DNA of 64,000 nt from Nymphaea colorata (Eukaryota; Streptophyta; Magnoliopsida; Nymphaeales; Nymphaeaceae): the NCBI RefSeq assembly GCF_008831285.2, contig NC_045138.2, positions 19,563,934-19,627,933 on the forward strand. The letters run 5' to 3'. A model generated the notes under the pieces. That model saw nothing but the letters and a program-made list of their open reading frames with translations, was not told the origin of the DNA and ran no database searches. Shown one piece after another: positions 33,345 to 58,635 of the stretch; position 1 is the stretch's first letter, and every line of letters begins with the position of its first letter. The translations under genes were made by a program, and so were the position numbers.

Positions 33345-33490
33345 GGAAAATGTATTCACATGAGCAGTATATACGAAGAAGCTAGGAAAATGTATTAACA
33401 TGAGCAATATATACGAAGAAGCTAGCAACTCACCGGACTGATGGATTAAGAGATGGAAGAACTCACCGGACTGATGGATTCAGAGATGGA
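33345..33490. repeat. Two nested tandem duplications in the SEO leader
   Basis: A segment containing ggaaaatgtattcacatgag and tatatacgaagaagctag occurs twice (33350 and 33384). A segment reading aactcaccggactgatgg then gatggaag also occurs twice (33426 and 33461). The second duplication copies the leader-intron donor (GTGAGTT on the minus strand), giving two candidate donors. Confidence 0.75.
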
Positions 33491-33760
33491 AGAAGGAGAA
33501 GAGAGTGGGAAGGCCTGAGAACTAGAAGGTATACTCGAGTTAGGATGGCAAAAATGAGGAGAACTCTGGCTTCCTTTATAGGCGCGAGCAAGCGCGTGAG
33601 GGCTCAGCACTGGTCACCTCTTCGTGTGCATTAATGGATCAGGGAAAGTATAAATTGGCATTAATGTGATGGCTCAACTGCATCCTGGAATTTTAGCAAA
33701 CAAGACTTCCAAGTCCATGGGTCGTCGTCATCACACTCACGCCACCAAAGGTGACATCAT
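33486..33760 (-). promoter_or_regulatory. SEO promoter: shared module with paired TGACG-type motif and TATA box
   Basis: Seen from the plus strand: tcacgccaccaaaggtgacatca (33737-33759, with TGACATCA at 33752-33759), then gacttccaagtccatgg (33704-33720), then a block around gtgcattaatgg and agtataaattggcatt (33627-33668), then the minus-strand TATA box (TATAAAGG, complement of 33573-33580). The same order occurs upstream of the genes at 45514 and 57895. The motif pair is a TGA/bZIP-type site. Promoter function and phloem activity are inferred. Confidence 0.6.
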
Positions 33761-34238
33761 TATCATTTTTTTTTTTCGCGTACTCCTAATTACGCAACAG
33801 CCCTGCTTGTCCGAAATTTAATTAAACCAACAAAACTATGTACATACAAAAAATGGTGCCAAGAGAAATTATTAAAAACAAAATTTCTTGTGACTATCAA
33901 GTGGTTTTTAATAACCAGTTGCAACATCGTAAGGGTAAAATCGTTTGGATGTGAATGTACGCAGTCGACCATTAATTAAGAGAGAATACATGACCGGTAA
34001 AGTATTTCCACATCAATGTTTGCTTTGTAAAGAGGTAATTAAAAAAAATCCCAATATATTAGATTACATTACAATTAGACATTGAGCATACTGCGCATTT
34101 AAATATTTCCAACATAAGCCAAATGCGAAGACGGGATTCAGAGGCATAAAGTGTGCATTATTGAACTGGAAGCACCTTTTAATTTTATTTTGAAGGATCT
34201 AATAAGCAAAATCAAGAAACTTAATATTTCTCATTAAT

Positions 34239-34350
34239 GCATGGCAGTTCTTGGTTGTGAGGACCAAACTACAACCAGTAGGGGGAGGGAGAGAGAGAGA
34301 GAGAGAGAGAGAGAGAGAGAATGGATGCATGGTAGTTCTTGGTTGTGAGA
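34239..34350. repeat. (GA)n microsatellite between two direct copies of a 24-bp sequence
   Basis: The sequence tgcatggcagttcttggttg (34238) recurs as tgcatggtagttcttggttg (34327) on either side of about 18 GA units. From here to 35050 I see no gene. Confidence 0.7.
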
Positions 34351-55030: not shown

Positions 55031-56827
55031 TAAAATGATCTGCCATTATAAGTATTGATCATGTTGAAGATTTGCCAAATGGAAATCAACTACTGGGTAC
55101 ACATTTGGTCTTCAAAATGGAGCAATCTCATGGTGTCATGAAAAGCAACCAACAATTCACTCCCTGCAACAGAGCATCGCATAGAACAGCAGTTGAGCTG
55201 CTAAAGAATGCATCTGGCTAATACAACTATGGGAAGTTATCATACAAGAAGTTTATTTTCTGGTGGCACTTTATTACGACAATGAAAGTGCCACTAGACT
55301 TGCAAACAATCACAATCTTTGAGCAGACCACATAGAGGTCACAAAAAGCTTGCCAGGCATTCTCTAAGTTCAAGATGCTACTAGGAGTTATGAGTAGATA
55401 GTCAGCAATGAGAGGAAGATTGTAAAAAGTCCTCACCAACACTCACATAACGTTTAGGAGGACTCAAGGCCTCTGCATTGAGTAAACGAAAAAATAATGA
55501 CTAAAAATTAATTAGAATTTAGTGTTATTTTTCACTGCCATCACTCTGCTCTGCTCTTTATAAATAAAGCCGGGTGTGGAACTACTGTGCACGAAAATTG
55601 TGGGAAGAGTGTGCCATGACCAAAATACTTATGCTAAAGTTAAAAAAAAAAGCATTTTAAAAGGATAAAAAGGGGTTATAAAAATGTTAAAAAACTTAAA
55701 ATGTCCATTTCTTTATAAAAAAAAAATTGAAAAAATACCTCAGCATCTTCTTTTTTCCATTGTTATATATTTCAACACCCTTCTTTTTTCCATTGGTATA
55801 AAACCAGGCCCGATATTCGGGTATTGAGTCAGGCTCGGCTCGGTCTGATTGCAATAAAAAACATTTTTTAAATTATAAAATATTTTTTAATAAAAATTAT
55901 ATTTTAAATAATAAAATATATATTATTAAATTTAAAAATAATAAAATTTAATTTTTTTAATATTACCAAGCAAGCCTGAATTGGTTTCTGTCGAACAGAC
56001 CCCGGGCCGCCACGTACTAGCCCCTCGTCAGCAGCCAGGCCCGGCAGCCACCTCTACTTGTGAGTGCACAAAAACTCGGTCTGGGCTGATGGTTCCCTTT
56101 ACATTGCATCAAAAGGGTACATGAAATAGCAAGTGACGTTCGAAGGAGGTGAAGCTGATGAGGTTAGAGCGAGTTGCGTGTGCAACTTACATACCGTAAA
56201 AGGAATATTTTAATAATTTTTTAGAAAGGTATGTTTTTTATAGTTTTTTTATTTTCACTTTTGTCTTTCAAGTTTTTCTTTTTCATGAAAATGGGAGTAT
56301 TTTCATAATAACAACTATATTAACGCATATAACAATCGGTTCAATTTCACGACAATATTAATCACCTTCACTCGACCCTTTCAGTTTGGAAGAAGAAGGA
56401 TTCCTCTATTATATAGAAGAACGACAGGTTATCAACAAATTTTATTCATAAAGCTTGAAAACACCCCAGCAAGAGATCGAGTAATAGCTTTCTGAATGAG
56501 CAAGAGAGCAGCCTGTGGAGAAACAACGCTACACTCCGTAGACCCACTTCATTCGCAGCCATAGATCCTGATTATGTGACAACAGACTGCCACCATAGAA
56601 ACCAACCAGGAAAAGAGAAAACAAAAACAGAGAAAAGAAGAAAAGAAATAAGCGAACGATTTAAGAGCATTCGCTGCCCTTAATTTCCTCCGAGCAGTGT
56701 TTTTCACACAAGTGATCTAGCTAGCGGAGTTCGCAACTTAAACTTCCATCATGATCCATGAGTGGCCTTGTTCATGTTCATCTGCTAGTGTGATTCTGTC
56801 TAAGGGCAGTAACGCTCCGAATCATCA

Positions 56828-57895
56828 TCAGATTCCTTTGCCTTCACCATGTTCAATAGTCACCCTGGCACCAGTCAGTCTCTCCTCGAGGGAATGAGTG
56901 TAGATCTTCAAATGATCAATGTCATTGTTCTCTTTCTCCTGAAACTTCCTGATGAGATCCTCTTTCTCCTCGATGGCCTTCAGCAGATTGTCCTGTTCTT
57001 GCTTGTAGACCCTTAGTTCGTCGCTCAAGATGTCTACCTGCCTTTTGATGTTCAGATTAGAAGCATTAACGAGTTCCAATTTGATCTTATCAAGCCGTTG
57101 ATTCAAAATATTCACGTTATCGTCCATCTTCTCATCATACTGCATAAATTTTGATTCGAAGTCCTTCACGACATTCACCACGTTGAATTTATTTGTTTCA
57201 ATCCATTGATGCATGTTATGCAGCTCTAGTTCTTTGGGAGTCACAGTTCTGGTCCAGAACAAGTATTTTCTCAGCACTTCCATCTGAAACTGTGCATTTG
57301 CAGTGTCCAGATCCACGATCAAATCCCTAAGAGAGGATTTGGAAGCATAATTCTCATGCTTCGTATCAGTTTCAACATTCACTAGCGCGAAGGGTCCTTT
57401 CTGCTTGCGATCTCCGAGGCCTATTGCCTCGTCGACAAAGGAGAAGAGATTCTTCATTATCGACTCCATCATATGGTACACAGTCCTGCAGCTAACGTCT
57501 ACCTTCTTGGTGAACCCATCAGCGTTCTTCCACTCGACGTTCCAATGGGCTGGGCGGCTGCCCAAGCCAAGAACTGTGTTCATTTCAGATACCATCTGAT
57601 CCTTAAGCTTTTTGTTCTCGGTTCTCAGGCTCTCTATGCTGGTAGAGAGTTCATTAAAGCGACGGTCAACGACAGAATTAAGATCATTGAGCGTTTCCTG
57701 ATTCTTGGCAACATTCTGCTCAAGTTGCTTGAAGCGTTCTGTGACCAAAGACTGGAGATTTTTTATTGTTGTTTCGGTGTTGGTGGTTGTACCTTGAATG
57801 TCCTTGCACCACTTCTCGACACATTCGCTGCAGTTTTCAAGATTATGATCGTGGCTGTAGATGTACTTCTTCAGAAGATGTGGAACGTCGGCCAT
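56828..57895 (-). CDS. Coiled-coil paralogue of the polyprotein N-terminus, 355 aa
   Basis: The protein begins MADVPHLLKKYIYSHDH, the same type A N-terminus as the 1280-aa polyprotein. It has a heptad-rich region (residues 35-100), then a conserved central segment: VLGLGSRPAHWNVEW, KVDVSCRTVYHMMESIMKNL, FSFVDEAIGLGDR. A long helical part follows (MEVLRKYLFWTRTVTPKELE, HQWIETNKFNVVN) and a second coiled coil (NASNLNIKRQVDILSDELRV, KQEQDNLLKAIEEKEDL, LEERLTG). The last 13 residues differ from its relatives because the frame changes after LTGAR: the DNA that encodes the AKESD acidic segment in the others is read in another frame and ends at TGA (56828-56830). No enzyme motif is present. A promoter module with TATA at 58437 and a leader intron of about 200 bp lie upstream. 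Its function is unknown. It pairs head to head with the 62311 gene. Confidence 0.75.
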   Translation of the reverse strand: MADVPHLLKKYIYSHDHNLENCSECVEKWCKDIQGTTTNTETTIKNLQSLVTERFKQLEQNVAKNQETLNDLNSVVDRRFNELSTSIESLRTENKKLKDQMVSEMNTVLGLGSRPAHWNVEWKNADGFTKKVDVSCRTVYHMMESIMKNLFSFVDEAIGLGDRKQKGPFALVNVETDTKHENYASKSSLRDLIVDLDTANAQFQMEVLRKYLFWTRTVTPKELELHNMHQWIETNKFNVVNVVKDFESKFMQYDEKMDDNVNILNQRLDKIKLELVNASNLNIKRQVDILSDELRVYKQEQDNLLKAIEEKEDLIRKFQEKENNDIDHLKIYTHSLEERLTGARVTIEHGEGKGI

Positions 57896-58349
57896 TTATT
57901 TTCTCGGATGAAGGCAACCTTGCAGGGAGAAGTCGGAAAAATGCATCAAAAGAAAGAAACCCCTTTATTCTAACAAGATCAGGAGCTGGATTTTAGTTTT
58001 ACTGTGATTTCAAAAAGCAGATATCCGAATTTCAGTAGTCTTTATTCTCGAAAGAAAAGGCAGAATCGTTAGTCAAATGTTACCATACCAGCAAAAGCAG
58101 CTGGTACTCAAGTTGGTCTTTTCTGCAAGCACCTGCAAGTCGATCAAACACTCCCTGCATGCATATTTCGATTAGGTAGTCGTTTCCTAAAAATTAATTT
58201 TAAATCAATATAAGGCAATACAAAAAACAGTCGATTTTGGGCGTCTGCTCATTCTATACAAACATACATGCCGTCAAGAGGCCAAAAACAACTTGGGTTG
58301 CAACTTAAGTTAGCTCTAGCAACCAGGGAAAGCATGCGCAATATGAAGA

Positions 58350-58635
58350 AACAACTCACTGGAAGCAATGAAGATCGCACAGATGGAAGAAATGAGTGGG
58401 AGGCGTAAGATGAGCAAAGGGCTTCCTATTTTTTATAGACTGAAGGAGAATGTGAAGGCGTGAGGTTTCGGTTGGCGCCTCTACAGGTGAATTAATGGAC
58501 GGGAAACTAAATAATAGACATTAGTTATGAGGGCCCATGTGCCAATGGATTCCTGGAGAACTAATAATTTAAGAAGGAAGACTTCCAAGTCCATGGGGTC
58601 ATCTTCCTACTGACGCCACCAAAGGTGACATCATC
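58350..58635 (-). promoter_or_regulatory. Promoter of the 355-aa gene: shared module
   Basis: Plus-strand view: TGACG (58611-58615) and TGACATCA (58626-58633), then gacttccaagtccatgggg (58580-58598), then gtgaattaatggacgggaaa (58488-58507), then the minus-strand TATA box (TATAAAA, complement of 58431-58437) and a leader donor GTGAGTT near 58358. A matching acceptor (TGCAG) and the gtcgatcaaac leader word lie near 58125-58160. Of the three copies this one has the clearest complete layout, ending only about 540 bp from its ATG. Confidence 0.65.

Follow-up and report, generated by a model that had tools for sequence, protein, structure and literature searches.

A stretch of 64,000 nucleotides from the water lily Nymphaea colorata (assembly GCF_008831285.2, contig NC_045138.2, positions 19,563,934 to 19,627,933 of the forward strand; called the window below) carries a sieve element occlusion (SEO) gene, a member of a phloem gene family, beside a cluster of genes related to pararetroviruses. 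Segments of about 350 bp upstream of the SEO gene, of a gene for a 1280-aa polyprotein (POLY) and of a gene for a 355-aa protein (355) proved to be homologous, with their parts in the same order. Each such segment, here called a head, runs from the promoter with its TATA box through a short non-coding exon 1, closed by GTGAGTT, into the beginning of intron 1.

The SEO gene occupies 27084..32121 of the minus strand, with SEO_N or SEO_C frames at 32121-31819, 30778-30305, 29537-29394, 28847-28212 and 28028-27084. Both domains were detected with confidence (PF14576, E 6.5e-59; PF14577, E 1e-60) along with further exons, and this is the one SEO gene in the 184 kb around the window. It resembles in this domain composition the SEO family as described, whose members are predominantly expressed in phloem and have a similar exon-intron structure (PMC3017817). 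When start codon and splice sites are read from the sequence, the start codon is inferred to lie near 32108, so that the leader intron would fall within the 5' untranslated region (UTR). A first intron of this kind, which SEO here has in common with the virus-derived genes, goes unmentioned in the available part of that family description (PMC3017817). The C-terminus of the protein (27084-27360) contains an Ala/Thr-rich repeat around the motif YEAS.

POLY (41675..45667, minus strand) is an open frame of 1331 codons, giving 1280 residues from the first methionine. It is laid out as an N-domain shared with the family of the 355-aa protein, a middle region without a family match, an A3 protease, a reverse transcriptase (RT) and an RNase H. 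Three families were found above their curated cut-offs (PF02160, E 1.2e-6; PF00078, E 1.2e-23; PF17917, E 3.6e-10), and the best match to a solved structure was the RT/RNase H of cauliflower mosaic virus (8r0s, E 8.6e-70). No integrase family was found in pieces of the open frame, and on these protein matches POLY is caulimovirid-derived. Movement protein families and coat protein families with a zinc finger were found neither in the POLY pieces nor in its paralogues nor in nine other frames of the window, a scan that covered only a minority of the short frames between 34 and 64 kb. Scans of viral contigs with the POLY middle piece and RT piece returned no relatives, and the predicted structure of the middle region (pLDDT 30.4) was too weak to use.

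POLY and its truncated paralogues form a cluster of about 24 kb beside SEO. By sequence comparison the 355 gene (56831..57895, minus strand) encodes a predicted coiled-coil protein that is a paralogue of the POLY N-domain. That domain is also common to a 388-aa open frame (388; 62308..63471, plus strand), which matches the 355-aa protein at 60% identity across 284 aa, and to a fragmentary 165-aa open frame (165; 48899..49393, plus strand) with an N-terminus of the 388 type. A fifth fragment of the family lies just past the window at 65669-66037 and is 78% identical to residues 251-356 of the 388-aa protein. Similarity to the POLY N-domain continues in another frame at 56868-56782, past the end of the 355-aa frame, and the 355-aa protein therefore seems truncated relative to its relatives. 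POLY (minus) stands head to head with 165 (plus), as does 355 (minus) with 388 (plus), and because the N-terminal types match as well, duplication of a pair is suggested. Structure prediction for the 355 family was mostly helical but too weak to use (mean pLDDT 56.5). In protein database searches, all of which were limited by length and shared words, the 355-aa protein had no relative beyond the window's own.

The heads of SEO (33403..33788), POLY (47842..48165) and 355 (58316..58658) all lie on the minus strand and were delimited by alignment, profile and motif positions. Each contains, in order, ATGATGTCA, GACTTGG(A/G)AGTC, AT(T/C)AAT(G/T)CAC, TATAA and GTGAGTT, which bears out the initial annotation in its report of the same ordered parts in the same orientation at three places. 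The SEO head has ATGATGTCA at 33760-33752, GACTTGGAAGTC at 33715-33704, ATTAATGCAC at 33635-33626 and TATAA at 33580-33576; the POLY head has ATGATGTCA at 48136, GACTTGGGAGTC at 48095, TATAA at 47971 and its donor at 47872; and the 355 head has ATGATGTCA at 58634, GACTTGGAAGTC at 58591, TATAA at 58437 and its donor at 58359. Three details need amendment. The minus-strand TATA box is present in all three heads, but its distance from ATGATGTCA is 180 bp in SEO, 165 bp in POLY and 197 bp in 355 rather than 143-175 bp. A GTGAGTT leader donor likewise occurs in every head, with two in SEO (33466-33460 and 33433-33427) as against one each in POLY and 355. Finally, the TGACG motif adjoining TGACATCA is intact at POLY and 355 only; the homologous place in SEO is changed, and its TGACG is found elsewhere. 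The SEO leader and intron start (33333-33480) contain tandem copies of a 40-bp unit, the leader being partly duplicated.

Alignment of the three regions gave scores far above those of shuffled sequence. Over 1300-bp regions the local scores were 158 (SEO-355), 131 (SEO-POLY) and 118 (POLY-355, where the alignment also includes a GA repeat), and the shuffle maximum was 46 with 30 shuffles per pair. When only the module was aligned the corresponding scores were 157, 129 and 111, where 300 dinucleotide-model shuffles per pair reached at most 48. Furthermore, profiles made from any two copies recovered the third, with E values of 9.6e-26 for 355, 9.2e-19 for POLY and 6.8e-26 for SEO, while the next best other match in these scans (E 0.006) fell inside a coding frame. 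All three heads are identical at 115 of 270 ungapped columns. The invariant columns are clustered, to a degree that none of 5000 column shuffles equalled, and their longest run of 9 was reached in 6.3%; this test is indicative only, because the aligner itself favours runs.

The homology between SEO and 355 reaches beyond the head. A part of SEO intron 1 (33078..33265, minus strand) aligns from 33265 to 33078 with 58326-58140 of the 355 gene, inside the first intron, with a score of 73 against a null mean of 30.9 and maximum of 49 (0 of 300 shuffles as good). A masked run had missed this match, presumably by masking short homopolymers, and an unmasked run with its own null recovered it. These alignments, together with the profiles and the intron homology, support the view that SEO and the pararetrovirus-related genes have one promoter-leader head by shared descent, as had been proposed.

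A different segment, of about 260 bp, is common to POLY, 355 and 388 and lies just before their coding frames. Shuffles did as well in 0 of 300 cases for POLY-355, 0 of 300 for POLY-388 and 1 of 300 for 355-388; with the whole POLY intron in place of the segment, the counts were 5 of 300 (with 355) and 3 of 300 (with 388). In POLY the segment lies at 45516..45776 (minus strand). The 355 intron and pre-coding segment together span 57919..58326 (minus strand), within which 58326-58140 corresponds to SEO and 58178-57919 to POLY, with 58162-57899 corresponding to 388. No similarity past the head was found between the SEO and POLY introns (147 and 109 of 300 shuffles as good), nor any between SEO and the 388 intron (288 of 300). 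On these results POLY, 355 and 388 appear to descend from a single gene, with which SEO has just the head in common.

A diverged fourth head is possible before the 388 gene, at 61611..62006 of the plus strand, where ATGATGTCA (61635), TATAA (61792) and GTAAG (61839) follow one another. The candidate is weak: its local scores of 32-36 are within noise, as shuffles reach 41-56. Its pieces were given E 0.021 and 7 by two-copy profiles, values at noise level given that a coding frame scores E 0.006 with one of the same profiles; the three-copy profile did not list it, and a four-copy profile finds it by construction. ATGATGTCA occurs five times in the window, four times with TATAA 157-197 bp further on, and one of these four precedes 388. 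The candidate is retained because the segment after it is the one homologous to POLY (0/300) and 355 (1/300), so that its support consists of its position and that following segment. An imperfect tandem repeat, with copies 97 and 129 bp apart, lies upstream of the 388 gene at 60819-61152.

Several properties of POLY bear on whether it still behaves as a viral gene. Six positions in the RT and RNase H, which we take to be catalytic, were compared with 8r0s, and five of them are altered in POLY (two of three in the RT, all three in the RNase H), yet the frame remains open over its 1331 codons. Because the catalytic role is presumed, and because the construct solved as 8r0s seems to carry a change at one of these positions too, we only infer that the enzyme is dead. 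The N-terminal 790 residues have one outside relative in the protein database, a protein of N. thermarum that is 96% identical. Piece by piece, the identities are 232/242 for the N-domain, 291/300 for the middle region, 272/278 for the protease and 126/143 for the RNase H tail, and the contrast between middle plus protease and RNase H tail (Fisher p = 1.8e-5) indicates uneven conservation along the protein. The N. thermarum gene model (EJ110_NYTH36908) is without about 260 RT-region residues and 43 RNase H-region residues of the POLY frame, and for this reason the RT-internal piece gives no meaningful alignment (29/65). A search with POLY from the protease to the C-terminal end returned eight matches, of which one was the window's own, one was from N. 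thermarum and six were distant.

Between 355 and 388 the nonsynonymous divergence (dN) is 0.29 and the synonymous divergence (dS) 1.63 over 301 codons by the NG86 method, a dN/dS of about 0.18 with dS near saturation or beyond; identity is 0.50 at third and 0.79 at second codon positions. The POLY N-domain gave dN 0.30 and dS 1.08 with 388 (177 codons) and dN 0.38 and dS 2.68 with 355 (161 codons), where dS is again near or beyond saturation. The 355-165 and 388-165 pairs yielded no usable dS. Taken at the level of sequence, there are signs that POLY has turned into a host gene, and the plant may have tamed a gene that came from a virus. Three findings go beyond the initial annotation: the open POLY frame carries altered RT and RNase H positions, another Nymphaea species has a relative, and the genes belong to a larger cluster.

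The initial annotation had also pointed to paired TGACG sites near a TATA box as characteristic of caulimovirus-type promoters. In an as-1 element, a TATA box is closely preceded by two TGACG sites whose spacing is short and fixed. A 35S-type as-1 promoter is not supported here, given the spacing, the altered SEO site and the TATA distance: the sites are 15-16 bp apart in POLY and 355, one of them is changed at SEO, and they lie 165-197 bp from TATAA. With the consensus for the tRNA-Met primer site, no match with 0 or 1 mismatch was found in 34-64 kb, and a search allowing up to 2 mismatches gave 5 matches in the window compared with 4.5 expected. The leaders of 355 and 388, the two that were folded, were no better structured than shuffled RNA (z -0.01 and +1.88). 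Two exact-pattern scans of viral contigs returned 5 and 22 loci, and no module was detected by profile among the matches listed; the best of these had a profile E of 0.008, confined to short stretches that overlie the search pattern, with E 0.63 for the one RT match at these loci. A complete endogenous caulimovirid genome was rejected as well, in view of the movement and coat protein families not found in the frames scanned and the primer site not found in 34-64 kb. Since neither of the viral leader hallmarks sought, primer site and leader structure, was found, a host origin of the head is favoured.

We lean towards a transfer from SEO to the endogenous viral element, because no close primer site, excess structure in the two leaders folded, as-1 arrangement or, by two exact-pattern scans, viral-contig module was found and because the SEO promoters tested in other plants are phloem promoters by themselves. 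The specific proposal, to which we give an even chance, is that in Nymphaea a virus-derived gene received a copy of an SEO-type head and was afterwards turned into a host gene. Local duplication would have placed the head before the caulimovirid-derived gene, giving it a promoter of the sieve-element type and a 5'-UTR intron. The unit so equipped would then have been duplicated to produce 355, 388 and the fragments. The genes could have persisted in some role for which reverse transcription is dispensable; a coiled-coil scaffold together with an aspartic protease is one candidate.

A number of observations weigh against this proposal. In unrooted quartets of the heads, SEO grouped with 355 in 773 of 1000 bootstraps, with POLY in 200 and with 388 in 27, the 388 row being weak, and part of intron 1 is common to SEO and 355 only. 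With a root towards 388, SEO would fall inside the virus-derived genes, which would fit a transfer to SEO; the grouping can mean either that SEO owes its head to a member of the virus-derived family or that 355 has retained, or recovered, more of an SEO-type head. As for domestication, three of the five altered catalytic positions carry the other acidic residue, and the loss of RT/RNase H activity, as read from the sequence, is not certain. The open frame of POLY may reflect a young insertion instead of selection. With dS near or beyond saturation, selection before integration could also explain the dN/dS ratio, and the gap in the RT region of the N. thermarum model may stem from decay or from annotation.

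The grouping of SEO with 355 and their common intron sequence speak for the opposite direction, in which the head is the virus-derived family's own and SEO took its promoter, first exon and intron 1 start from a neighbour, in other words co-opted a viral promoter. The homologous pre-coding segments of POLY, 355 and 388 agree with this idea in that the head may be ancestral to the family. Furthermore, the distance from TATA box to open reading frame in the 355 gene is about 540 nt, a length common for the leaders of caulimovirids. We nevertheless regard co-option as unlikely, if a serious contender. The quartet is unrooted and its 388 head is aligned at noise level; a primer site with 0 or 1 mismatch in 34-64 kb, excess structure in the two leaders folded, the as-1 arrangement and a module in viral contigs by two exact-pattern scans were all lacking; and the SEO promoters tested in other plants, according to the part of the study available, are phloem promoters in their own right (PMC3017817).

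Alternatively, the cluster could be a relic of non-autonomous pararetroviruses that had come to hold regulatory sequence in common through recombination prior to their integration, with a copy passing later to the nearby SEO gene. A precedent is available in grasses, where different pararetroviral genes, including those of non-autonomous elements, are described as sharing noncoding regulatory sequences through recombination (PMC5491270), and the failure of the POLY pieces to match movement or coat protein families would be in keeping with it. In Nymphaea, unlike the grass case as far as it is described (PMC5491270), the sharers include a host phloem gene and sit at one locus: the paralogues, some of them head to head, occupy no more than 24 kb and have homologous pre-coding segments, SEO carries the module too, and the POLY frame is open although its catalytic positions are altered. 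This account therefore strikes us as improbable.

A 91-nt core of the 355 head matched two places in the 408-Mb genome (783 contigs), itself and the SEO head, in a search too insensitive to reach the POLY copy, so that diverged copies elsewhere are possible. In the 184 kb around the window a profile search with a limit of E 1 recovered the three heads alone, and at that sensitivity the head is no abundant repeat. Despite the microsatellites around the heads, it is thus very improbable that the module belongs to some transposable element or dispersed repeat and came to stand before three genes by chance, each time in sense and ending in a splice-donor-like GTGAGTT. Rfam gave no match at the gathering threshold. 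Elsewhere in the window there is a frame with a YTH domain at 21134-21961 (plus strand) and a sub-threshold Brix-like stretch at 13153-13611.

Two other systems invite comparison, each cited from the part of the source available. The AtMP gene of Arabidopsis, a caulimovirid movement-protein fusion gene (PMC10377300), is like POLY in placing caulimovirid-derived sequence in a host gene; it differs in that AtMP has a movement protein, whereas POLY has protease, RT and RNase H and a promoter in common with a separate host gene. The badnavirus insertion at eggplant R1, with its putative alternative viral promoter (PMC8346255), also brings caulimovirid DNA together with the regulation of a host gene at a single locus. 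There, however, the promoter sits in an intragenic insertion of the last 3 million years (PMC8346255), in contrast to the diverged heads common to separate genes described here. A promoter common to an SEO gene and caulimovirid genes was not found among the best literature matches, as judged by title and the start of the abstract.

According to the accessible sections of a 2023 review, the evidence for domestication of caulimovirid genes or regulatory elements by plants is slight, and there is none for florendovirus promoters driving host genes (PMC10377300). One Nymphaea locus now makes both questions testable, since it has homologous heads at host phloem and virus-derived genes and an open caulimovirid polyprotein with altered catalytic positions.

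The locus also touches on the history of the caulimovirids. OTU 21 of a 2026 survey comprises two nt-ECRTs, from N. colorata and N. thermarum, and is placed there as sister to all other clade A members (PMC13308828). These are the same two species that hold POLY and the one outside relative of its N-terminal 790 residues, and POLY is probably OTU 21. The survey, in the part available, treats OTU 21 as a viral lineage (PMC13308828), whereas the POLY frame is open, its catalytic positions are altered and its head is shared with a host gene. The basal place of OTU 21 could in part reflect fast evolution as a host gene, and if POLY is OTU 21, the inference of clade A age from that basal position (PMC13308828) rests on a possibly domesticated gene. 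We suggest, tentatively and as a possibility on which we would not yet rely, that in the water-lily lineage a pararetroviral polyprotein was made into a family of sieve-element genes when promoter, first exon and intron of a phloem-occlusion gene were passed to it or exchanged with it. The RT would then have decayed while scaffold and protease were kept, and the clade A-basal OTU 21 would be a host gene, not a viral fossil.

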